From the NCBI GenBank assembly GCA_003645255.1, contig QNES01000011.1, forward strand, positions 1 through 48,067: a stretch of DNA of 48,067 nucleotides. The letters run 5' to 3'. Below, piece after piece: positions 1 through 32,631 of this stretch. Numbering within the stretch: the first letter of the stretch is position 1; every line of letters begins with the position of its first letter. The stretch is from Gammaproteobacteria bacterium. Lineage in GTDB: Bacteria > Pseudomonadota > Gammaproteobacteria > Beggiatoales > Beggiatoaceae. The translations under genes were made by a program, and so were the position numbers. The notes below the pieces were generated by a model that saw only the letters and a list, made by a program, of their open reading frames with translations, searched no databases and was not told where the DNA came from.

Positions 1-90
1 AATACTGAAGAACTTTATCAAGCTCTAGCAGATGCTTTAGAAACAATTACTCCTGATGATGCACAAAACTGCTTTCAACATTGCCTCTAA
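1..90 (+). CDS. IS630-type transposase C-terminal fragment (partial)
   Basis: The frame is open from the first base of the window to a TAA at 88-90. It ends in DDAQNCFQHCL, which resembles the last helix of IS630-family DDE transposases, typically ending in an FxHCxY-like motif. The same frame stays open after this stop to a second TAA at 121-123 (NCTLCKREPL). The TAA may therefore replace a Tyr codon, which would make this a slightly shortened or dead copy. The catalytic DDE residues would lie outside the window. Family assignment rests on about 29 residues and is tentative. Confidence 0.45.
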   Translation, partial: NTEELYQALADALETITPDDAQNCFQHCL

Positions 91-116
91 AATTGTACTT
101 TATGCAAACGGGAACC

Positions 117-154
117 GCTATAACATCAAAAACTTGATAGTCGAGTATTATAGC
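117..154. repeat. Inverted repeat after the transposase fragment
   Basis: GCTATAA at 117-123 is inverted as TTATAGC at 148-154. The block contains ATAACATCAAAAACTTGA, which recurs exactly at about 38688 and 38912 upstream of petA. It could be the end of the insertion sequence or an independent repeat. The stretch from 91 to 231 has no convincing gene. Confidence 0.35.
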
Positions 155-231
155 ATTATTTTCTGGGTATATTATTTTTTTGGAGTTACCTAATGAGATT
201 GAAGCGCGAATGCTTTGACTCATACTCTTTT

Positions 232-1755
232 TTACCAAAAAGTCTTCTGTTCAAAAAAAGTTTGACAAGCGCTGTCTAAGCTAGTCAGGTAAGTTATGTG
301 TTGATGGGCATACCAACCATTTATAAAATGTCGAGCGGAGGCATTTTCATCTAATCCAGCTTGGTTGAGCAAATCAGTTGCCACATTCACATCATTGAGG
401 ACCCCTAGTTCATCTTGCAAATGTGATAAGTTTTTGGCATAAGGGCGAACAGCTTTATGTGGATAAAGTTCAGCAAAAAAGCGGGTACCATAAGCCATTT
501 CTTTGACAAAAATACGCAACTCATGACGTTGCTCAGTGTTAAGTTGGGCGAAGTTTTGACCCTGTTGACAGATTCGCTGATAATGCGATTCGAGCTTTTG
601 ACTGGCAAAAAGCATAACTGGGCTATCCAGACGCTGTAAGCTTTTTGTACCTAATTTCCGCCGCCAGCTTTGTTGCATCAGCCATTGACTAAGTGATAAC
701 AACAAACGACTATAATCAGGTGAACGCATGGCTTGACGCACCGTGATATACGCCCGTTCCTGAAAGTCTGCTACCCGTGTTTGTAAATCTTCGAGCAACT
801 GGTGCGAAAGAGAAAGAGGGCTGGATTGTGCTTGCATGTTTTGCAAATTCAGCGCAAATACATCCCAATCTCGTGCCACACCTAACACATCAGTCATCCA
901 TTTCACATCCTTGTATAACTTAGCATAAGTTTTTTTAGGAATCAATGACTTATAGAAACTAAGACAAGAACGCAAACGGCGCAAAGCCACGCGCATTTGA
1001 TGAACACCCTCAATATCTTCACCATACAAAACCATTTCTTCATTAGCTTGTAGATGTTCAAGACAATGCCAGATAATATGAATAAAAGCTTGATCGGCTG
1101 TCATATCAGGATTTAAATTAACGCTCCCAGCTTTCTGGAATTGAAGAGAGTTAGTTTGATACAGGGCATAGCCCCGTGCCGCCTTGCTCTTATTCTCAAT
1201 CGTGAGTGGCAAAGTTTTTTGTAAAGTCAATGCGACTTTATAAAGAACATTTGGCGAACCCGCTTTGAGTTCTAATTCCACTTCATTTAGGGGAATACTA
1301 GCGGTTTTGGTTTTAATTTCCCCCTGATCAAGAGCCACTTCAATTTTGCTTCCATCGTTTAGGCTAAGGTCCCAGGTGGTTCGTGTAAAATCAGTGGTAA
1401 ACAGGGCTTCTATCTTTTTACGATTTTTCTTACTGCTACACCAAGCAGGTAAAGCCCCTTTTGGAAATTGACTATAGTCGGGAGTATTACCGCTTATCTC
1501 CATTTCCCATTCTTGGCGTTGATGCAACCCCCCTAAAACAGTTCCAGCCGTTTTCATAGTTTGCAGCCGTTTATCACCAATACGGCGCACTCGCAATCCA
1601 ACCCCATGCTGCAATAAATCATGGTTTGGCGTATCAAAATAAGTATTGTATAAATGTTGAGTGGTATGGCTTGCCGATTGTAACATTGGGTGCTGTATCA
1701 GCTTATTAGCCTTTTTTGGGGGTAATGATAATTTTAATTCAGTTTCAATAGACAT
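232..1755 (-). CDS. ygiF: CYTH-CHAD protein, inorganic triphosphatase (YgiF-like)
   Basis: This 507-residue protein begins MSIETELKL, the ExExK signature (E4, E6, K8) of the CYTH triphosphate-tunnel fold. Alternating charged strand residues run through about residue 200. A CHAD domain follows from about 222 to the end, with HQMRVALRRLRS at 252-263 as its basic helix; CHAD domains are known to bind polyphosphate. The same two-domain order occurs in E. coli YgiF (433 residues), a cytoplasmic inorganic triphosphatase. The frame is open further upstream, but ATG at 1755 was chosen because the signature starts immediately after it; ATG at 1767 is possible. The stop is TAA at 232-234. Together with the DHH phosphoesterase at 46102, it hints at phosphate-polymer metabolism, which is inference. 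Confidence 0.85.
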   Translation of the reverse strand: MSIETELKLSLPPKKANKLIQHPMLQSASHTTQHLYNTYFDTPNHDLLQHGVGLRVRRIGDKRLQTMKTAGTVLGGLHQRQEWEMEISGNTPDYSQFPKGALPAWCSSKKNRKKIEALFTTDFTRTTWDLSLNDGSKIEVALDQGEIKTKTASIPLNEVELELKAGSPNVLYKVALTLQKTLPLTIENKSKAARGYALYQTNSLQFQKAGSVNLNPDMTADQAFIHIIWHCLEHLQANEEMVLYGEDIEGVHQMRVALRRLRSCLSFYKSLIPKKTYAKLYKDVKWMTDVLGVARDWDVFALNLQNMQAQSSPLSLSHQLLEDLQTRVADFQERAYITVRQAMRSPDYSRLLLSLSQWLMQQSWRRKLGTKSLQRLDSPVMLFASQKLESHYQRICQQGQNFAQLNTEQRHELRIFVKEMAYGTRFFAELYPHKAVRPYAKNLSHLQDELGVLNDVNVATDLLNQAGLDENASARHFINGWYAHQHITYLTSLDSACQTFFEQKTFW

Positions 1756-1940
1756 AAGAACGCTCATCAGTGAAGAAAATAGGTTGCCCTTAGAAATTTT
1801 TGCCAAAAATAGTATTTTTAATTTGTTAGAATTCGTGTCGGAAAGTTGCCGTTGCACAAAAAGACTTGCACACCCTACATAACATGCCATATTTAAGCCA
1901 TTTAAAGTATAAAAGAAACCAAGTTTTTTCAAATGTGTAC

Positions 1941-4403
1941 CTACATACCATTCTCTTGAATCCGATTACCAGCACTCGTATGATCCTCAACAGCCATAAA
2001 AGTCTGATCCACGATACGATTGGCCTGGACAATGTTGCCTGTCGTGTGGGGTAATAGATGCACCCCTGCATAATGTGATCCCAAAATGTCATTTTCAATA
2101 ATGCGATTATAACAACTGGGAAAATCACTTTGATCAGGATGTTGACGCACTGCAACCCCAATAAGAACACCAAAAAAATGAAATTTATCGTTCACTCCGC
2201 GATTATTGTTAGCAATGAGATTGTGCGCCACTGTGCAGCCATAGACAGAACGCACAAATTTAACCCCATCTCCCCAATTGCCCTCAATACAATTATTTTC
2301 AATCCGAGAATAAGCGGCGTTATCAAGGCTAATCCCCGGCAACTTGGCTTTAGAAGTGCCATCAGGCATCAAGCCCATTGTTTCGACAAAATCTTGAGTC
2401 AATTCAGCTTCATGTTGTAAACCACGTCGCCCATTATTGTAGATATGACAATTTTGCACTTGGCAACCCCAAGAGCCATTATCGATAGTAATCCCTTCAC
2501 AATCATTATCGGCAATAATACAATTAAGCACGCGCAAATAACCAACCCCATCGGTGGTGATGCCCACTTTACGATTGCGGCGAAATGAACAATTGATTAA
2601 TGTATTGCGATAGGGCGCGGGATCCTCAGGCGCAAATGGACCAAAATTGCCAATGATTTCAGCGGTATAATGTATTTGTGCTTGGAAATCTAACGGATCG
2701 ATCTCTGGTGGTAATTTTAAGTCCGTCAGGAAAACACCAGCTTGTTGGCAATGTTCCGCGATACAAGCTTGCAACAAGCTTTCCCGCACATCGCGTACCA
2801 TCATAAAACCGACTAAACCAGCCTCATAAACAGCGCATTGCTCCAACCGCGCCCGGTAAACCCCATCTGAAAATAGAAAACCAACAGCGCGAGGTGCAAA
2901 AATTTCGACATGAGAAAATAAAATATCGCTCGCTCTCGTCGCAAAAATGGCCGCACAAAACTTATGGGCACCTTGGTGACGAATCCTTACATTTTCTACC
3001 CGTACCCGATTGTCACCTTGAATCATTAAGCCAAAATCAATCTCCTTGAAAACTAACTCTGTTTTCCCTAATACGCCAACGAGGTGCACACCAGTACGGA
3101 GTTTCAACGTTTCTGTCAACTCAATACGACCTGCCGGCAAATATACTTCACCTCCGTTTTCTGGTAAAGCCGCCATTTCGGCAAATAGACGGCTCGCATT
3201 AAAATCGTCTGGCGGAATCACGCGCACGGCTACCTCATCAGCCGCAGTTTGTGGCATGAAATCGTTTGCTGGCTGAATCTCCACTTGTGCGGCAAGACGC
3301 ATCCGCTCGAAAAGTGCCCATTCAATTTGGATAGATTGGGGATTGAATTGAGATTCAGGTGACTGTGGCATGGATTTAGGTTTGAAAATCCCAGCTTCTA
3401 GCTCAATTGTGAACGTATGCAACGGTTTGTCAGCCGAAATATCTAACAAAATATCACGTTTGGCAGTGTAACCTTTTGCTGAAATATCAATAAGATACCT
3501 GTTAGGTAAATAGTGATCGAGATAAACATTGCCATCTTCACCGGTTATTCGCTGTTCTCCACACCGTTGCGGACAAATAAACTCTGCCCCCGAAATGGGT
3601 TTGCCGCTCTGGGCATCAACAACAGTAATGATAACTTGAAATTTCTCAGTAGAGGGCAGCGTAGGATGAGTTTTTGAAAACAACGGTATTCGTTTCAGGT
3701 GTTTGCGGGAACCGATTTTTACCTTGTCGCCTAAGGAAAGTTTTGCCTGAATAGGTTTATCGCTTTTCTTGCGAAGGATTGCAATGCCAAATCCATCCCT
3801 TGTTTGCATTTCAATCAATTCGATCTGCTGCGGGATCACTTCACTCGCATTAAAATGATCAATCAGTGCGCGGGGGCCATCAACATCACACATTGAGGGG
3901 TAAATATCATGCAGGATTAAGTATCCACCTACCCGAACGTCGTTATAATAGGTATTAAAATCAGCGAAAACCCCCTTGATCGAATGATCACCGTCAATAT
4001 AAAGCAGATCAATCTGGTTTTGAATTTGATCAGCTATTTGGGAATACACTTGGGTGGAATAACCCTTGATATAGGTAATGATGTCTTCCACCCCGGCCAT
4101 TTTTCGGTAATATTCTGCGATTTCCTGACGATTTTGCATACCTTTACCTGCATCCACTTCCCAATCGAATGCATCAATCGAAATAATTTTACCAAAGCCA
4201 AGTTCTTTCAAGGCTTGGGCAAAATGAAGCGTTGAAAAACCGATAAAGCAGCCGATTTCCACCACCAATAAAGGACGCAACATTTTGGTTAAACTATAAT
4301 AGGTATTTGCTACATCAATGTTGACGGAAGCGGGATGAGAACAAGGCAGGTTATCAACTTCCTTAATCACTTCCGTTAGATAAAGATGATCTTTTTCACT
4401 CAT
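1941..4403 (-). CDS. Class I methyltransferase / CNA-B-like domain / parallel beta-helix fusion
   Basis: An 820-residue protein with three parts. Residues 1-215 look like a class I SAM methyltransferase (Methyltransf_24 type): VVEIGCFIGFS at 47-57 is motif I, IDAFD at 76-80 the acidic loop, and IDGDHSIKG at 136-144 followed by GGYLILHD the late motifs. Residues about 255-336 form a CNA-B/carboxypeptidase-regulatory-like beta-sandwich (VVDAQSGKPISGAEF). From about 400 to 815 there is a right-handed parallel beta-helix with recurring N-x-I and N-N-x-I turns, as in NosD/pectate-lyase-like proteins. No signal peptide is visible, so the methyltransferase starts in the cytoplasm. The beta-helix part is clearly related to the protein at 5241-6932: both have DG(T/S), AKLP, ISLDNAA, GDG(V/I)K and FHFFGVL(I/L)G in order. 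Substrate unknown; surface-glycan modification is a guess. Confidence 0.8.
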   Translation of the reverse strand: MSEKDHLYLTEVIKEVDNLPCSHPASVNIDVANTYYSLTKMLRPLLVVEIGCFIGFSTLHFAQALKELGFGKIISIDAFDWEVDAGKGMQNRQEIAEYYRKMAGVEDIITYIKGYSTQVYSQIADQIQNQIDLLYIDGDHSIKGVFADFNTYYNDVRVGGYLILHDIYPSMCDVDGPRALIDHFNASEVIPQQIELIEMQTRDGFGIAILRKKSDKPIQAKLSLGDKVKIGSRKHLKRIPLFSKTHPTLPSTEKFQVIITVVDAQSGKPISGAEFICPQRCGEQRITGEDGNVYLDHYLPNRYLIDISAKGYTAKRDILLDISADKPLHTFTIELEAGIFKPKSMPQSPESQFNPQSIQIEWALFERMRLAAQVEIQPANDFMPQTAADEVAVRVIPPDDFNASRLFAEMAALPENGGEVYLPAGRIELTETLKLRTGVHLVGVLGKTELVFKEIDFGLMIQGDNRVRVENVRIRHQGAHKFCAAIFATRASDILFSHVEIFAPRAVGFLFSDGVYRARLEQCAVYEAGLVGFMMVRDVRESLLQACIAEHCQQAGVFLTDLKLPPEIDPLDFQAQIHYTAEIIGNFGPFAPEDPAPYRNTLINCSFRRNRKVGITTDGVGYLRVLNCIIADNDCEGITIDNGSWGCQVQNCHIYNNGRRGLQHEAELTQDFVETMGLMPDGTSKAKLPGISLDNAAYSRIENNCIEGNWGDGVKFVRSVYGCTVAHNLIANNNRGVNDKFHFFGVLIGVAVRQHPDQSDFPSCYNRIIENDILGSHYAGVHLLPHTTGNIVQANRIVDQTFMAVEDHTSAGNRIQENGM

Positions 4404-4842
4404 GCTAATTTCCTTTTCAAAAAAATCCGATTTTTTAGAAAAATTTTTATTTTGTCAACTTTTCTGGCTAACTATAACTACTCAGGGCAATCACAAGGGT
4501 GTGCAGCCTACGTATAAATATTTTCGGAACGAAGCATAAGAATATTGTTGTAGGGGCAAGACTGACTGGTTGCTCTGAGTACTTAAAAAAATAGAATTTT
4601 ATAAATGTTAAAAGATTATAGATTCATGTAGTGGCGAATTTTTGTGTTCGCCCTTTGTGAAACGTTGAACATCTAAGTAGGTACACATAAATATTTTAAC
4701 ATTTTTGTTTTCTTCTAAAGCACTCATTATTAACGGATTTATAAAAATAGAAATTGTTTTATGCTAAAGCATTGATTATTAACGAATTTTTATAATAGAA
4801 AATGTTAAAAGACTTTTGTGGACCTACTTATATACTTATAAT
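4404..4842. other. Intergenic region with small repeats
   Basis: No gene is supported here. The stretch holds a GGGTGTGCAGCCTACG repeat near 4497 (its reverse complement is near 28191), a TAGGGGCA stem-loop at 4548-4580, a GCGAA/TTCGC stem-loop near 4630-4660 and the inverted-repeat element at 4674-4830. All belong to repeat families seen elsewhere in the window. Confidence 0.7.
4674..4830. repeat. MITE-like element, 157 bp, 32-bp terminal inverted repeats
   Basis: The left end (4674-4705) begins TAAGTAGGTACACATAAA. The right end (4799-4830), read on the other strand, begins TAAGTAGGTCCACAAAAG. The two ends agree at 28 of 32 positions. Between them lie two tandem 48-bp units (about 4706-4753 and 4754-4801), each containing CTAAAGCA, ATTATTAACG and ATAGAAA. 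It has no coding capacity. A related end is found at 32541-32572, also 28 of 32 identical to the right end. No clear target duplication is visible. Confidence 0.65.
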
Positions 4843-5043
4843 TCACCGCATCCATATTGACTGCAAATGGGCAAATTGGTCAAAACCATAAAAACGCGCC
4901 ATACGGATATGGCTGTTTTCGGACCATTCTGTGGAATTAAGCACCCCATCTATTGTGGGAGTTCCGTAGGGGATTATGTTATCAGCTTGTGTTAGACTCG
5001 CTGAAAGACATAAAACCGCCCCTACCCATTTTGCGGTTTTCAT
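4843..5043 (-). pseudogene. Truncated secreted protein, CBM9/DOMON-like start
   Basis: A 66-codon frame encodes a signal peptide (MKTAKWVGAVLCLSASLTQA) followed by GTPTIDGVLNSTEWSEN, the characteristic opening of family 9 carbohydrate-binding-like (DOMON-type) domains. Such domains normally need about 170 residues or more. Here the frame stops about 30 residues into the domain, and no continuation is seen in the other frames. The break lies 13 bp from the MITE-like element at 4674-4830, suggesting that insertion or a related rearrangement removed the rest. It could still be expressed as a small secreted peptide, but the remnant explanation is simpler. Confidence 0.55.
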
Positions 5044-5240
5044 TTAATTAAGACTCCTTTTTAAGTAAAAGTTATTTAACAATAGTGCCATTAATTATTT
5101 TAAAATAAGTTGACTTCAATTGCAACTGGAAAAATAGTTAAAACTTGATGTTTAAGTTAGCATTTGTTAACATAATTTATTTCGCACGATCAAAAATCCG
5201 TTTGTTTCGATAATCCGTTGTACTCTCAAAATATATAAGC

Positions 5241-6932
5241 ATGAACTTTAAACGATATAATGTTATTTGGTTGTTAATAGCGACATGGTGTAGCAGCATT
5301 CAAACAGTGTATGCAGAAAGCCTACTTCAACAATATCATATGCCGCCTTTGGAAAGGGCGGCGAATACTGATCCGGCTAAGATATTACTAGATAATGCAA
5401 GAGCATTAAAACGAGCCCAAGCTGTTTCGATACCTTTTACAGCGATAGAAGATCCCAAAACCTATCAAAACAACTTGCGGGATGACATTCAAGCTGGTTT
5501 GCCAAGTTGGGCAAAAAATACTCCCCATGTTGACTTTAGTGGAAATAAAATCAGCGAACTCAATAAATTATTGCAAAGCTTATCGGGTCAACACCGTGTG
5601 AGTTTGCAAGGACAAACGATAATGGCTGATGAAGTTTTATTGCTGCCCTCAGAAATATTACTATTAGGTAATAATGCCACGTTAACGGCTCCTACCGTTC
5701 AAAATCCTGCCACTGTGCTAATAGCCGCTAATAGTGGCAAGAGTGGAATGATTGATTTTGCGATTGAAACGACAGGGCTTGGTATTATGATTGCGGGAGC
5801 GCAAGGGGTGATAATGCGTAACCTGCGTTTTCTTAACAGTGGACGCGCTATTGCGATTTTGAATAATAGTCGCTTTATTGAAATCGAACAGGTGCAAATT
5901 AACCAACCGCAGCAAGGCGGCATTTTAATCCAAGGCAATGTCTCATACGTTTGGTTGCATGATTCAGATATTCGCAATGGACAACGAGCAGATAATGGCG
6001 GTGCTGGGCTGCTGATCAGCGATGCTTTGGCAAAAAAAGACTTTGAAAACAGTACCTTAGCAGATTCACTTACAGAACCCTTATGGCCGATTCACCCGGC
6101 GCCGCATGCATTGTTGATTGAAAACAATACCTTCAGCGGACATAGAACCCAGGGATTGTATATTGACGGTGGCTATGGTTTGGTCATTCAGCATAATCAA
6201 ATCATGCATAATGACAAAGAAGGTATGTGCTTAGATTTTGGCGCTGTCAATAATATTGTGATGGAAAACGTTTTTGAAGGCAATGGCCATCGTGCTCGCC
6301 AAACGGATGATGATCTTCGCGATGATTTGGTTCTTGGATTTGGTCGCCTAGCGGATGGCTCTGCGGTCGCAAAATTACCGGCGATTTCCCTGGATAATGC
6401 CGCCCAAAACCTATTGCTCTGGAATATTGTGCGAGACAGTGCCGGCGACGGGATTAAAATTGTGCGGACTGGCATACGTAACTTGATTATGTTTAACACC
6501 TTGATGGATAACAATCAGGGTACTAACAGTCGCTTTCATTTTTTTGGAGTATTATTAGGCAGTGCTGGCTTAGAAGCGGAAATTGACTCTGGCAACCATC
6601 CACTTGATTTTCTACCTCCCATCGAAAATATCGTCGCTGGGAACCTAATCTATGGTGCCCATTGGGCTGGTATTTTACTAGATCGTGAAGCTGCCTTTAA
6701 TGATATTTACGATAATATGATACGCCATTATCAGCATTTACCCATTGAATCTGCCAGTAGCCGTTTTAATAGTATTGTTGGTAATAGTTGGCAAACTGCT
6801 CATCCTAAGTCTTGGAAAGAACAGTTAATGTCGCTTTTAACTAATTGGAAGGTATGGCTGTTCGCGTTGGTGATAATAGTGGCAATAATGGGATTATTGA
6901 TCTTGCTCTTAAAATGGCGGGGCAAAAATTGA
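5241..6932 (+). CDS. Secreted right-handed beta-helix protein with C-terminal membrane anchor
   Basis: The 563-residue protein has a signal peptide (residues 1-26, ending VYAES). A parallel beta-helix runs from about 100 to 520, with repeated short strands ending in Asn-rich turns (IENNTF, IQHNQI, NIVMENVF). A single transmembrane helix lies at about 536-557, followed by a short basic tail (KWRGKN). The topology suggests the helix domain sits in the periplasm, tethered to the inner membrane. It is paralogous to the C-terminal half of the protein at 1941-4403. Families with this fold act on or bind polysaccharides; catalytic residues cannot be assigned by eye, so no enzyme name is given. Its own upstream region lies between it and the divergent truncated gene at 4843. 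Confidence 0.75.
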   Translation: MNFKRYNVIWLLIATWCSSIQTVYAESLLQQYHMPPLERAANTDPAKILLDNARALKRAQAVSIPFTAIEDPKTYQNNLRDDIQAGLPSWAKNTPHVDFSGNKISELNKLLQSLSGQHRVSLQGQTIMADEVLLLPSEILLLGNNATLTAPTVQNPATVLIAANSGKSGMIDFAIETTGLGIMIAGAQGVIMRNLRFLNSGRAIAILNNSRFIEIEQVQINQPQQGGILIQGNVSYVWLHDSDIRNGQRADNGGAGLLISDALAKKDFENSTLADSLTEPLWPIHPAPHALLIENNTFSGHRTQGLYIDGGYGLVIQHNQIMHNDKEGMCLDFGAVNNIVMENVFEGNGHRARQTDDDLRDDLVLGFGRLADGSAVAKLPAISLDNAAQNLLLWNIVRDSAGDGIKIVRTGIRNLIMFNTLMDNNQGTNSRFHFFGVLLGSAGLEAEIDSGNHPLDFLPPIENIVAGNLIYGAHWAGILLDREAAFNDIYDNMIRHYQHLPIESASSRFNSIVGNSWQTAHPKSWKEQLMSLLTNWKVWLFALVIIVAIMGLLILLLKWRGKN

Positions 6933-6942
6933 TACCAGTTCA

Positions 6943-6974
6943 AGAAATCCGATTTTTTCAAAAATCGGATTTTT
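6943..6974. terminator. Palindrome AAATCCGATTTTT family, likely terminator
   Basis: AAATCCGATTTTTTC is followed by AAAAATCGGATTT, a near-perfect hairpin ending in a T run, just after the beta-helix gene. The same palindrome recurs at 8716, 22011, 26085 and 45128, with base-changed versions at 21329 and 34736. It can act as a terminator in both directions. Confidence 0.55.
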
Positions 6975-7029
6975 ACTGATTCTAATTAGGCAACTATTTT
7001 AAAAGTTTCAAGGTGTGAAAGGTGACAAA

Positions 7030-7380
7030 ATGAAAGAAAGTACTCGTTATTTAAAAATGGTTCAATGGTCCGAAGAAGATGCTTGTTACATTGGAACTTG
7101 CCCGGGGTTAATGTTAGGTGGTGTGCATGGAGATAATGAGATTGACGTTTATGTTGAATTGTGCGAAGCCATTGAAGAATGTATACGAATCTATCAAGAA
7201 GATGGAGACACTTTACCAGAAGCTACTGCGAAACCTTATTCCGGTCAATTTAACCTTGATGTGGGTTGTGAATTACATAAAGCACTTTCTATTGCTGCCC
7301 TACAAGTAAACGAAAGTTTAGAGTACTTTTGTATCAATAAACTCAAACAATATACCCATCTTCATAATGTATCATTTTGA
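7030..7380 (+). CDS. HicB-family antitoxin-like protein, solitary
   Basis: This 116-residue protein has the HicB fold: an N-terminal half with TRYLKMVQWSEEDACYIGTCPGL and GVHGDN followed by a helix (YVELCEAIEECIRIY), then a C-terminal ribbon-helix-helix-like segment (LHKALSIAALQVNESLEYFCINKL). HicB proteins normally neutralise the HicA mRNA interferase and bind the operator of their own operon. No HicA-like double-stranded-RNA-binding ORF is visible on either side, so this is an orphan antitoxin or a regulator. ATG at 7030 was chosen over GTG at 7015 because AAAGGTG lies at good spacing before it. Confidence 0.75.
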   Translation: MKESTRYLKMVQWSEEDACYIGTCPGLMLGGVHGDNEIDVYVELCEAIEECIRIYQEDGDTLPEATAKPYSGQFNLDVGCELHKALSIAALQVNESLEYFCINKLKQYTHLHNVSF

Positions 7381-7440
7381 GGCAAGACGGGGTTTACAAG
7401 CTAGCCATGTTGGGTGGGAAAACTCCTTTCATGAATTAAT

Positions 7441-7473
7441 AAACCTGATAGGTTTTTAAAACCTGTCAGGTTT
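7441..7473. repeat. Nested palindrome AAACCTGACAGG family
   Basis: AAACCTGATAGGTTTTT and AAAACCTGTCAGGTTT form an inverted repeat whose halves are themselves near-palindromic (CCTGACAGG). Other copies lie at 31117-31149 and 46051-46083, with a half copy near 18910. This one separates convergent genes and may terminate both. Confidence 0.6.
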
Positions 7474-7509
7474 GGCTTGTAACTGTCAGAAGTTATTAAA
7501 ACCTCATTT

Positions 7510-8358
7510 CTAGGTTCTAATACCAAAACTTTGGTTAAAAGCATTCTCTGGAATAGCAGATACGCCCGTCAATTCGTAGATCAACTTATAGCGTTTCCAA
7601 GCATCTTTACGTCGCCCCATTTCCAACAGTATGTTTGCGCCTGTTTTAAGTGCCCTAATATGAACCTTCATTAATTTAGCATTCTCAAAATCGTGTGGTT
7701 CTTGATAGATATCAAATGCTTGACTAAAGTACCTTGAAGCCTGTTTAGATCGACGCTTGTTATATAAAACAATACCTATTTGTTCAAACAATTTGGCACG
7801 ATCAATATCAAATCGAAAATTATTTGCGATGGCTGGCTGATTATAAATGGCTAATGCCTTTTCAAATTGACTGAAAGTCATTTGTATAAAACCGCGTTTA
7901 TATGCATTAAGCGCGGATCTTTCAAAAAGTTTGGCTCGTTTAACCGCCGGTTTTATCTGATACTTGATAATCAAAAATTTGTAAGCGAACAATCCAAAGA
8001 AAACGGTGATGAGTGCCACTTCCTCAAGTATGATTGCGCTTGGATAAAAAATAAATAAGAAACTGGTACAAAGCAAAATAATGAAAGCTTCGCCATAAAT
8101 TATTGGCTTGACTTCATTAAAACAAAATTCCTCTACTTTAGTTAATAGCCATGTTAAGAGATGTTGTAGGGATAAAATGTGCACTATTTTTGTCAAGAAC
8201 TTGATAGGGTTGATAAAAAGTTCTGGAATCTCTAATAACAATTTCAGACACAACATGGGAAAATTGAGAAAGTATCTCGTAAAAATAAATACGCATAAGA
8301 CAAGCATTGCAAATGAAAGTAGCAATAAAGGAAACAGTGCTAAAATTTGGTGAGACAT
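7510..8358 (-). CDS. Membrane protein with TPR-like C-terminal domain
   Basis: The 282-residue protein begins with a long hydrophobic segment (about residues 5-30). A further pair of membrane spans (about 88-130) surrounds the stretch AFIILLCTSFLFIFYP. The last 140 residues are soluble helices with TPR-like spacing (SALNAYKRGFIQMTFSQFEKALAIY, RAKLFEQIGIVLYNKRRSKQASRYFSQAFDIY, ANILLEMGRRKDAWKRY). The likely role is a membrane-bound scaffold facing the cytoplasm; the partner is unknown. It is a single-gene unit with repeat-rich intergenic DNA on both sides. Confidence 0.6.
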   Translation of the reverse strand: MSHQILALFPLLLLSFAMLVLCVFIFTRYFLNFPMLCLKLLLEIPELFINPIKFLTKIVHILSLQHLLTWLLTKVEEFCFNEVKPIIYGEAFIILLCTSFLFIFYPSAIILEEVALITVFFGLFAYKFLIIKYQIKPAVKRAKLFERSALNAYKRGFIQMTFSQFEKALAIYNQPAIANNFRFDIDRAKLFEQIGIVLYNKRRSKQASRYFSQAFDIYQEPHDFENAKLMKVHIRALKTGANILLEMGRRKDAWKRYKLIYELTGVSAIPENAFNQSFGIRT

Positions 8359-29116: not shown

Positions 29117-31066
29117 TTATAGCTCAATAAACCATCTTCGTATAAATTCTACTTGAAAGCGATAACCAGTCGAAGTTAATTCAATTAATTCACGTTTTAA
29201 CAAATTTGATAAGGAGCCTTCAAGTTCGTCTGAAGGGCATTCTTTAGCTAATGTTACCTCATCCAGAACAGAATCTAAACTTGATTTCATTGCTATAAGA
29301 TGCAATATTTGTTCCTCCAATGATGAAGTTTTTGTGATATGAATAAAATAATTTTTACCACTTTCCAAAGCATTAGGAACTGCAAATTCAACATCTTCTA
29401 ATTGTACAACATTTCTATTTAAATGTGGTTGTTGGTTTTTTAAAAATACAATTTCTTTGCACAACAATTGTATCAAAGCCGGGTGGCAATGAGTGATGGT
29501 TAAAATACGCTGTGTGGCATCATGCGTATAACGAAGTGAAAAATGGTTTACGGTTTGTTCAATAAGTTGTATTGCTTCACTTTCCTGTAAATAAGTCAGC
29601 TTGACCGTTTCAACATTAATTAAATAGTTAGCCCAATGGGGAAAAGCATCCAAGTGATAAGCCCCTGCAATCAATATTTTAAAATGTGGGCGATGTTGAA
29701 TGATATGACGAAACATCCCCAATACTAAATTTCTATCTAAACGCCTTTTTTCAAAAACATGTTCTAAAGCTTCAAATTCATCAAAAGTGAGTAGCCAAAC
29801 ACGATCTTCTGCACACGCCTCAACACAATCCAGCCATTCATCAAATTCAGTAAATGGATCATTCTGTAAAGTATTTCGCTTAAGGATGGGTAATTCTAAT
29901 TGTCGAGTTTTACTCGCTGACCGTATAATTGCACGGCTGATAGTATATAAAAAGCCACTATAATCGCTAGCTGATGAAACAGGTCCCTGAAAATCAATAA
30001 ATAAAGGTATATAATTATCGGGTAATAAATCTTTTAAAAAAATCAAAAGCGAAGTTTTTCCCATGCGCCGTTGTCCATAAAGTAAAATAGGAGGACTACG
30101 TTGCGCCTGTAATAATAATTCAATACGGTTGCTGACATTAGTGCGCCCAACAAAAAGACATTTATTTTGTAGCGTAAGGGGAACACCTGTAATATAAGGC
30201 ATCTCAATTTTTTTATCTGCAATAACATCAGGCTCCTGTAGCCACCATCTATGTGAGAAACCAAAAGCCAATGCCATTAAACTAGATAAAAGTATGGAAC
30301 TATCAGGGTGTCGCCCGATAAAAAAAGCCACATAAATCCCCCCACTTCCTAACAAACCTGCGACAATGCCAGCCATTAAATTCCTGGCTAAATATTGCAC
30401 TAAGAGAAAAGGCAAGGCAAATAATAGCGCAAATAATAAACCATTTGAAATGCCACCCATCATCGGATTGTACTGCCCATTGGTCATAATGATAATGAGA
30501 GTTAATACTAAAACTATACTACCTGCCCAAAACCAACGACTTTTTAGGATGGGTTCTCTGGATAATTCTGATGCTAAACTGAGTAAAACACTACAAGCTA
30601 GACTGAAACCCAATATCCCTGATGAAATAGCGGCTTTGTACCATTCTGCTTCATCCATTCCAAAGGATAAACCAATCAACAAACTACTTATTATACTTGC
30701 AACAAAGCCAAAAGCAACAGAGACTGTAATACCACAAGTTAAACCACCAATGAAACCTAAAAAGATTGCATAAATGACACCCCTAACGATTAAAGTCAAA
30801 TCTTCACTGAGCCACCATAGCCACAATCCCACAAAAATTCCCGTCAGAATCGGTCCAACGACATATATTAATCCTAATAAACGTCGTAAAATAGGATGCC
30901 GCCAATGTTTCAGGCTCAGTTTAGATAATGCAAAATCGGGTGGCAAATCAGGATCAATATGGGCGACTGTTGCTTGCCAAGCAGACGGGCGGAAAACTAG
31001 CCAAAAAAGCAGTTGAAAGGTAGCTAAAAATGAATTGCGATAAAGAAAAGTTGTCGTTGAATACAT
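29117..31066 (-). CDS. Membrane STAND/AAA ATPase
   Basis: 649 residues. Residues about 1-280 hold up to nine hydrophobic helices. Then comes a P-loop domain: NKCLFVGRTNVSNRIELLL, Walker A YGQRRMGKTSLL, Walker B VWLLTFDEFEALE, and a sensor-like ILIAGAY. A winged-helix-like end (LLKRELIELTSTGYRFQVEFIRRWF) follows. This order, with a YGQRRMGKTS-type loop, is typical of the ORC/STAND group of regulatory ATPases. The C-terminal half resembles the soluble ATPase encoded next upstream, so the two may act together. The input signal and output are unknown; anchoring suggests response to a membrane event. Confidence 0.75.
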   Translation of the reverse strand: MYSTTTFLYRNSFLATFQLLFWLVFRPSAWQATVAHIDPDLPPDFALSKLSLKHWRHPILRRLLGLIYVVGPILTGIFVGLWLWWLSEDLTLIVRGVIYAIFLGFIGGLTCGITVSVAFGFVASIISSLLIGLSFGMDEAEWYKAAISSGILGFSLACSVLLSLASELSREPILKSRWFWAGSIVLVLTLIIIMTNGQYNPMMGGISNGLLFALLFALPFLLVQYLARNLMAGIVAGLLGSGGIYVAFFIGRHPDSSILLSSLMALAFGFSHRWWLQEPDVIADKKIEMPYITGVPLTLQNKCLFVGRTNVSNRIELLLQAQRSPPILLYGQRRMGKTSLLIFLKDLLPDNYIPLFIDFQGPVSSASDYSGFLYTISRAIIRSASKTRQLELPILKRNTLQNDPFTEFDEWLDCVEACAEDRVWLLTFDEFEALEHVFEKRRLDRNLVLGMFRHIIQHRPHFKILIAGAYHLDAFPHWANYLINVETVKLTYLQESEAIQLIEQTVNHFSLRYTHDATQRILTITHCHPALIQLLCKEIVFLKNQQPHLNRNVVQLEDVEFAVPNALESGKNYFIHITKTSSLEEQILHLIAMKSSLDSVLDEVTLAKECPSDELEGSLSNLLKRELIELTSTGYRFQVEFIRRWFIEL

Positions 31067-31116
31067 ACATTTTGCCCTGAAATTTTTCTTAAAAAATGCG
31101 TTTTTTTATAAACGAC

Positions 31117-31149
31117 AAACCTGACAGGTTTTAAAAACCTGTCAGGTTT
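31117..31149. repeat. AAACCTGACAGGTTTT nested palindrome
   Basis: AAACCTGACAGGTTTT followed by AAAACCTGTCAGGTTT, a perfect inverted repeat, between the two ATPase genes. It could terminate the upstream one. Confidence 0.75.
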
Positions 31150-31169
31150 AAAACTCAAACGATTAGCCC

Positions 31170-32270
31170 TCAAGCAGAATCAGAAGCCCACAGATACTGA
31201 TAACGTTTAGTCTTTTCCAAACCAACTTTTTTCCAATCGTGACGATCATCGCTTTCAAGTTGTGTTTTATAAAGTTCTTGGAGTAAGACAGGCCAATAGT
31301 GGCTCTGTTGCAAGATCCATCCTGCATCCTTTTTGGGAAGTGAGGTACGTTGTAAAAATGTACGTCCTTCTTTTTCTGTCAAAGGGCCTAGCTTGACTTC
31401 ATCAAATACGTTATAAATAGGTGAAGATTTATCCTGAGCGATTGCCAGTTCTTCCAACTGAGTACAGGAATAACGGGAAGCGACACAAAATCCCAATTTT
31501 TCAACGTGACTACCCAGATAACGCATATTATTCCAAAAGGCGTCATCCAACTCTGATGATTGTATGCCACTTTCAATATTATCCATCATAATCACGGCGG
31601 GTTTTTTGAGGTCATCTTCAAGCTTCGTCGTGAAGTTAATCAAATCACAATCTGACGTGTCTAATTTCAATTCATCAAGTATATAAGGCAACAGTGTGTC
31701 CAATTGCTGCATTCGCACATTGTCAAAGTCCACAAACACCCAGTCGTATTTTTGTTTGAACTGAGTCGTATTTTGCATCATATAGTTAAGCAATGAGGTT
31801 TTACCGCTTCGTTTTGGTCCCACAATGGCAACATGTTCAAGGGGGATTTTTTTCCAAACACTAAAAATCCTGTCAACTAACGCTCTACGCCCAAAAAACT
31901 GACGTGGGTTACTAATAGGACGTGTCGTAATGGGAGTAAGTGGCGAATTTTCATCATCCTGCGATTCTTCATGAACCTCAAAACTGGCAGCATTATCATC
32001 TGTAACGTATTCTTGTTGAGAATCAAGTATCAATTTGGCTTTTGGATCAGGCCATCCCGAGGAAGTAAAAAATTCGTTACGTTCTACCGGGTTTAAGTTA
32101 AATGCATCAGCACATTCTATGATCGTATCATATTTAGGGGATCTGATTCCGCCTTTTCGCCAGCGAAAAATAGTTTCTCGCTTCACATGAAGTCGATGGG
32201 CGAGCGTACTATCAGTAAAACGCTCGCGCTTCATGTATTTTATAACCAAATTAGCAAATTCGTTGTTCAT
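31170..32270 (-). CDS. HTH-domain STAND/AAA ATPase
   Basis: 366 residues. An XRE-like helix-turn-helix at about 1-65 (FTDSTLAHRLHVKRETIFRWRKGG) is followed by an acidic linker and a P-loop domain: FFGRRALVDRIFSVW, Walker A GPKRSGKTSLL, Walker B PAVIMMDNIES. A C-terminal helical part has FLQRTSLPKKDAGWILQQS. It is probably a DNA-binding ATPase switch. ATG at 32270 was chosen (GAGGA six bases upstream); a TTG at 32282 also opens the frame. It is encoded just after the Hsp70 operon on the same strand, separated by 360 bp of repeats. Confidence 0.75.
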   Translation of the reverse strand: MNNEFANLVIKYMKRERFTDSTLAHRLHVKRETIFRWRKGGIRSPKYDTIIECADAFNLNPVERNEFFTSSGWPDPKAKLILDSQQEYVTDDNAASFEVHEESQDDENSPLTPITTRPISNPRQFFGRRALVDRIFSVWKKIPLEHVAIVGPKRSGKTSLLNYMMQNTTQFKQKYDWVFVDFDNVRMQQLDTLLPYILDELKLDTSDCDLINFTTKLEDDLKKPAVIMMDNIESGIQSSELDDAFWNNMRYLGSHVEKLGFCVASRYSCTQLEELAIAQDKSSPIYNVFDEVKLGPLTEKEGRTFLQRTSLPKKDAGWILQQSHYWPVLLQELYKTQLESDDRHDWKKVGLEKTKRYQYLWASDSA

Positions 32271-32631
32271 TTTATTCCTCAATCATTTTTCAGACATTAT
32301 CAGGAATTGGGTAAAATCCGATAAGGCATTGAACAAAAATAATCTTATAGATTATCAAGAAAATCATTTCACAAGGGCTGATTATTTGCCCTTTAAGTTA
32401 TTAGGTAACTGTTTAGGTGGACAAGAAAACCCATTGCCCCCCAAACAAAATGTTAATAAATTTTTGCGTACATACCTATAATATTATCGTTGACAAACAA
32501 TTTCAAGTCGTTTTAATACTCAACAATCATCAAACCGTATTAAGTCGGTCTACAAAAGTTTATTAACATTTTAGGTAGGGTGGTTTCGAGGTTTTAGTTT
32601 TTCTTCAAAAAACTCAAACCTCGTCACCTAC
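32271..32631. other. Intergenic region with MITE ends and a long hairpin
   Basis: No gene is supported. Two copies of the 32-bp MITE end face away from each other: an AAAATGTTAATAAA... end at about 32448-32479 and TAAGTCGGTCTACAAAAGTT... at 32541-32572. A long hairpin at about 32572-32632 pairs CGAGGTTTTAGTTTTT with AAAAAACTCAAACCTCG and lies directly after the zinc-ribbon gene stop, where it could terminate the chaperone operon. Confidence 0.6.

Follow-up and report, generated by a model that had tools for sequence, protein, structure and literature searches.

Carbohydrate-active beta-helices of the kind considered here are mostly exported enzymes or phage tailspikes, and those closest to our locus, the A-modules of AlgE4 and AlgE6, AlgG and the alginate epimerase/lyase 8ja4, are right-handed beta-helices that resemble the helix described below over most of the domain. 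The AlgE/AlgG mannuronan C5-epimerases carry a DPH motif, which we take to be catalytic. NosD, a periplasmic copper protein, is likewise built on a beta-helix. For the other half of the protein the closest described enzymes are SafC and MeT1 (6g7d, 6g80), the latter a mycobacterial methylmannose 1-O-methyltransferase; their chains have no space for an Ig domain or a helix, since they are only about 213-233 residues long. MeT1 is described as methylating precursors of the mycobacterial methylmannose polysaccharide (PMC9883506). Finally, in WbdD-type terminators of ABC-exported glycans a methyltransferase is tied to a long rod, and both WbdD and coiled-coil rulers have been described (PMC3482155; PMC11231755).

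Here we describe a gene that joins a predicted methyltransferase to a predicted beta-helix. It lies in a window of 48,067 nucleotides, the whole stretch of DNA that was analysed, from a draft genome of the Beggiatoaceae (contig QNES01000011.1). Within a limited literature collection no work joining Beggiatoaceae with a beta-helix was found, nor, among the titles listed, any on such a fusion. In what follows G numbers denote genomes, C numbers contigs of the window's genome and L numbers loci; proteins in which the methyltransferase is followed by an Ig-like domain are called MT-Ig.

Domain organisation of the fused protein

The reading frame of the fused gene starts with ATG and has zero internal stops, and AAGGA, a plausible ribosome site, lies 8 bases upstream of the start (Table 1). 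That a methyltransferase, a middle domain and a beta-helix are combined in a single protein, as a first-pass annotation of the sequence had claimed, is borne out by the frame, by Pfam and by an AlphaFold2 model. Pfam places Methyltransf_24 at residues 48-167 (E 1.4e-20, 74.6 bits against a cut-off of 26.3), and finds Beta_helix (E 4.7e-24) and NosD (1.1e-11), both above cut-off. The middle domain matches CarboxypepD_reg with an E-value of 7.8e-4 and 20.2 bits, which is below the cut-off of 32.3; its earlier label as CNA-B-like therefore stands as a fold class only and not as a family.

Table 1. Features of the window around the fused gene
Feature	Position	Strand	Basis
CYTH-CHAD protein, directly downstream of the fused gene; true start probably nearer 1760	232..1932	-	ORF, Pfam
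Fused gene: methyltransferase, Ig-like domain, beta-helix; 820 aa	1941..4403	-	ORF, Pfam, AlphaFold2
Right-handed parallel beta-helix, residues 389-820, AlgE/AlgG-like fold	1944..3239	-	Pfam, model, fold search
Conserved insert between helix rungs, residues about 660-697, KLPxISLDNA signature	2313..2426	-	alignment, model
Fusion joint, residues 337/338; DNA homology to the G002 helix gene begins at window codon 338, which is G002 codon 13	3390..3395	-	DNA alignment
Ig-like domain, residues 256-337, CarboxypepD_reg-like below cut-off	3393..3638	-	Pfam, model, alignment
Basic amphipathic linker, residues 213-255, possible membrane contact, mostly low pLDDT	3639..3767	-	model, amphipathic score
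SAM-dependent O-methyltransferase, residues 1-212 (Methyltransf_24)	3768..4403	-	profile, fold, motifs
Exported helix-family member, 563 aa; its first 25 codons an apparent signal peptide, with a membrane helix near the C-terminus (about 6843-6914)	5241..6932	+	both by eye

Structure prediction, which had been suggested as a check on the continuity of the protein, gave three folded blocks within the 820-residue chain, namely a methyltransferase fold, a beta-sandwich (256-335) and a beta-helix that begins at about 389; the stretches between them, 225-253 and 340-388, were modelled with low confidence. The model was built on an alignment of 25 rows and has a mean pLDDT of 79.3; the individual domains are sound as predicted, and because pTM is 0.57 their relative placement is not fixed by the model. 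The protein is a novel domain combination built from known fold families. Its N-terminus, MSEKDHLYLTEVIKEVD, has no hydrophobic leader that is visible by eye, in agreement with the earlier statement that a signal peptide is missing.

The methyltransferase half

The N-terminal half has the marks of Methyltransf_24 and of cation-dependent O-methyltransferases, with a profile score above cut-off, SAM motif I (VVEIGCFIG at 47) and the H and HD positions, found in DGDH at 137-140 and HD at 165-166, all of which we take to be SAM-binding and catalytic-metal sites. Indeed H140 and HD165-166 align with residues 144 and 169-170 of MeT1 (6g7d), and SafC and MeT1 are the nearest fold and sequence neighbours (Foldseek). 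The predicted fold is that of a SafC/MeT1/COMT-like O-methyltransferase, and whilst MeT1 and SafC resemble it in fold, sequence and the H/HD positions they are only 21-23% identical to it. It would seem probable that this half is a sugar-methylating enzyme.

The enzyme is not retained in all relatives. In the methyltransferase of the Ca. Marithrix locus (L033) roughly the first 124 residues are missing, and SAM motif I with them, while H140 is replaced by Y and D166 by K, and because the methyltransferase core is lost the fusion in that organism cannot depend on methylation. Taken together with losses in G004, described below, this speaks against methylation being essential.

Basic amphipathic stretches were scored in 6/6 MT-Ig linkers tested and at 3/3 N-termini of standalone helices, and are absent from the fusion linker of the window protein; the score is unspecific, 38 of 803 segments of the fused protein passing it, some of them within the beta-helix. 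The fusion may use one shared membrane contact.

The beta-helix half

The predicted helix matches AlgE6 (Z 37.5, rmsd 1.7, 323 aligned) and AlgE4 (Z 37.1) best, with the alginate epimerase/lyase 8ja4 and the Sf6 tailspike as the next matches and RbmB lyase and NosD (Z 31.8) lower down; AlgG scores 28.8. The AlgE-type helices are, however, only 12-19% identical to that of the window, which has its own KLPxISLDNA insert and a leaderless, fused form. Furthermore the DPH motif is absent from the fused protein and from 17 further helix ORFs that were checked, two of which are near-identical and from one genome and one of which is cut by the end of its locus; it is also absent from the exported neighbour, from the L081 helix and from the partial L034 and L041 helices. 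As the motif is missing, an identity of the window helix as an AlgE-type C5-epimerase was rejected.

When a sequence profile of the helix family was compared with solved structures the best match was GH110 (7jwf, E 9.5e-7), followed by AlgE4 (0.0045), but single stretches of the GH110 match are weak (best i-Evalue 0.026) and the best of them spans only profile positions 123-216. An identity as NosD was also rejected, as the helix scores 22.9 bits against an NCBIfam NosD cut-off of 300; NosD does share the beta-helix and the Pfam NosD match, and the scan of 30 window ORFs named no nos partner genes.

What is invariant in the helix family is a set of residues that includes D694, N695, K715, R718, D760 and H777 (17-18 aligned rows). 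The predicted fold suggests a helix of a polysaccharide-binding or polysaccharide-modifying type. The first-pass annotation had proposed the helix as a binding platform, and this may be too weak a description, because epimerases and lyases of polysaccharides head the fold matches and the polar set is invariant, yet the fold lists of both the fused helix and the exported neighbour also contain non-enzymes, such as NosD, the adhesin PfbA and phage appendages.

The exported neighbour is encoded divergently, 837 bases away from the fused gene, and its fold list resembles that of the fused helix (AlgE4 Z 32.7). Ten relatives of this exported type from the family were compared, and within the family the type adjoins a propeller-like gene in L042 and GT2 genes in L046. 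The apparent signal peptides of such helix relatives, and the adhesin in the fold list, would fit a reading in which the fused protein is itself an exported surface adhesin or enzyme with a vestigial methyltransferase domain. We think this very unlikely, as no leader was seen in the fused or standalone helix proteins of the subfamily to which the fused gene belongs and the SAM motif is intact in the window copy.

Distribution among genomes

The fused protein has matches at 1e-10 in 18 of 42 genomes of the family, mostly through the exported-type helix. The combination of a methyltransferase with a helix in one chain is rare, the intact form being seen in the window's own genome only (1/42 family genomes), and the domain order is as unusual as had been supposed. 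In a survey of the class at 1e-15, 2/369 genomes gave a match, namely G026 and that of the window itself. An origin from a phage or plasmid was rejected: no plasmid records match the fused protein at 1e-8, and the phage matches are weak, confined to the methyltransferase part and come from one Synechococcus phage (two records).

All seven MT-Ig genomes that were found also have a helix of this family. The helix is fused in G000, G028 and G409 (with a frameshift in the last), adjacent in G408 and on another contig in G411, and G410 and G412 have only a divergent helix with 31% identity. The helix also occurs without an intact MT-Ig, in G002, G004 and Methylobacter (G407).

Origin of the fusion

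The two halves are separate genes in a Desulfobacteraceae MAG (L032), where an MT-Ig of 345 aa and a helix of 539 aa are same-strand neighbours separated by a stop codon and 61 bases. The same-genus genome G002 has a standalone helix that is 79% identical to that of the window, and MT-Ig was not found in that genome. At the end of MT-Ig the L037 protein terminates in LEAK, the window protein reads LEAG and that of L038 reads LEAKQADA. Given where homology to the G002 gene starts, and given the LEAK end in L037, the window gene looks like an MT-Ig tail joined to the 13th codon of a helix gene, and the form of the joint, as read from the alignments, is that of a deletion-type fusion. The idea that an ancestral methyltransferase linker gave rise to the opening 24 codons of the helix gene in G002 was unsupported, as the local alignment score of 33 (mean of shuffled sequences 25.7) was reached by 12 of 300 shuffles and the best match was the joint itself.

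In Ca. Marithrix (L033) the genes are fused in frame with two Ig copies, and the joint there drops a longer N-terminal part of the helix. A third case, L034 from a MAG labelled Flavobacteriaceae, has a methyltransferase, then four Ig copies and the helix, and is interrupted by a frameshift, so that the copies between the two halves number one in the window, two in L033 and four in L034. The L034 helix falls within the Marithrix group in the helix tree; its contig, JADGEA010000248.1, carries a Marithrix-like glycan locus and is probably a binning contaminant.

Separate genes with an intervening stop had been named in the first-pass annotation as a sign that assembly error had joined two neighbours. 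Such genes were found in L032, but they point to evolutionary fusion and not to misassembly, because the joint falls where one gene naturally ends and just within the 5' end of the other, and there is a second in-frame fusion in Marithrix. An assembly or binning artefact might be entertained for a draft genome of 313 contigs whose two halves exist as separate genes elsewhere; with a joint that is in frame and at natural gene ends, GC3 that is similar on both sides of it (methyltransferase 0.387, Ig 0.341, helix 0.381) and a fused relative in another genus, we hold it to be very improbable. A genuine fusion of two genes is what the window gene appears to be.

It would appear that fusion probably occurred twice, because the window and Marithrix joints differ and the G002 helix is unfused; a single fusion with later fission in G002 is a possible alternative, and two fusions are the simpler reading. 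In the helix tree, where 4 of 8 inner branches are starred, neither the fork of the window with G002 (86/96) nor that of Marithrix (93/99) is among them, and support is moderate. With 1 of 6 inner branches starred, the MT-Ig tree has too little resolution to give a date for the fusion.

Decay is also seen at this kind of locus. What remains in G004 is the start of a propeller-like gene, half an Ig domain and an interrupted helix; the helix gene (L041 10389-12125), split by an insertion that carries resolvase and OrfB_IS605/TnpB-like genes and preceded by upstream deletions, has the appearance of a decaying locus. Decay of this sort, by deletion and IS605/IS607-type insertion, would be in keeping with a chance fusion of little function, in which the domains were joined by deletion and each acts alone, as would the loss of the Marithrix methyltransferase core and the single family genome with an intact form. 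We consider this unlikely, given the adjacency of the genes in L032, what are probably two separate fusions, and the intact motifs of the window copy.

Genes for glycan synthesis around the relatives

Eight MT-Ig loci were counted (the window and L032-L038). A propeller-like gene is beside MT-Ig in six of them, the exceptions being the window and L035, and GT2 genes are present in four (L032, L033, L037 and L038), three of which also have Glf, a UDP-galactopyranose mutase. Outside the family, a GT2 gene follows the standalone helix gene directly in five of five genomes (L031, L032, L081, L084 and L091), overlapping it or within 42 bases of it; the GT2 identity comes from Pfam for four of these genomes and from reading by eye for L091, whose gene nearly duplicates that of L084. 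G002 does not have the order of helix followed by GT2. The MT-Ig of L035 is by ABC-transport genes, that of L036 has a propeller-like gene on one side and otherwise general genes, and L034 is a short contig. With many relatives among genes for glycan synthesis, the polymer-related role proposed at first pass is supported.

The window itself is different, as no glycan cluster was found around the fused gene in the 30 of 44 ORFs scanned. On other contigs its genome has a GT2 pair (C50), Glf (C4) and one Wzt_C match (C30). The C50 pair is 55% and 48% identical to the GT2s of L031 and L032, and C289 holds the best match (48% over residues 18-382) to the GT2 found directly after the helix. The Glf gene (L054:9706-10836) has none of the glycosyltransferases of the reference set nearby.

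A propeller-like gene was not found in the window's genome. Beside MT-Ig or the helix elsewhere there is a secreted, possibly propeller-like family (L032:4010-5842, L033:4118-5974, L036:2543-4414, L037:3408-5339 and L042:2380-4986). Pfam at 0.01 gave nothing for the proteins of L032, L033 and L037, NCBIfam gave nothing for those of L032 and L042, and the L042 protein has a weak BNR_4 match, below cut-off; the propeller fold is putative.

Two further features of the window were seen. A pair of adjacent genes at 29117-32282 (-) match ATPase_2/AAA weakly and resemble STAND-like NTPases, an HTH domain being present in one of them, and short dispersed repeats in window 1-8000 are common to two same-genus genomes (L039, L040).

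In L037 (G410) a Wzt carrying a Wzt_C domain is in the same cluster as MT-Ig, which raises the question of chain-end capping. The methyltransferase would place a terminal methyl on a finished chain, with the Ig repeats and helix as a spacer or ruler that replaces the coiled coil of WbdD, and only capped chains would be exported, by a Wzt that carries a sugar-binding domain at its C-terminus, a proposal that we would regard as improbable. The Wzt_C match in the window's genome and the variable number of Ig copies would be consistent with capping, but that Wzt_C gene sits on another contig, and in Marithrix the methyltransferase core is lost and the helix kept. Membership of the WbdD type, an enzyme joined to a coiled-coil ruler, was rejected as the rod of the window protein is an Ig domain and a beta-helix, with no kinase match and no long helix or coiled coil in the model. 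A bolder variant, a capping-and-measuring machine in which the methyltransferase rides on a variable Ig stack, the AlgE-fold helix holds or epimerises a lipid-linked chain as it grows, the beta-solenoid sets its length and the exported twin finishes the product in the periplasm, seems to us quite unlikely.

Proposed role in glycan tailoring

The explanation that we favour, and think reasonably probable, is a two-module glycan-tailoring protein at the cytoplasmic face of the membrane, fused from two genes of one surface-polysaccharide pathway. From gene context and fold we infer that the methyltransferase would methylate a sugar in a growing lipid-linked chain, which perhaps contains galactofuranose, and that the groove of the helix would hold the same chain and perhaps modify it, by epimerase-, lyase- or hydrolase-like chemistry with a catalytic set other than that of AlgE. 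Fusion would keep both steps together, the two modules sharing one membrane-contact segment, and in the periplasm the exported neighbour may have this glycan, or one related to it, as its target. Against this stand the neighbourhood of the fused gene in the window, which is not a glycan cluster, and the non-glycan contexts of L035 and L036. Where the first-pass annotation had allowed for either a cytoplasmic or a leaderless surface enzyme, the cytoplasmic face of the membrane is now favoured and a surface enzyme appears less likely.

There are hints, then, that the two halves act together inside the cell. A leaderless helix family that precedes GT2 genes, and a methyltransferase that has probably been fused to it twice, suggest that a beta-helix may handle polymer during its intracellular synthesis, and as the fusion names the partner of the helix this idea becomes testable.
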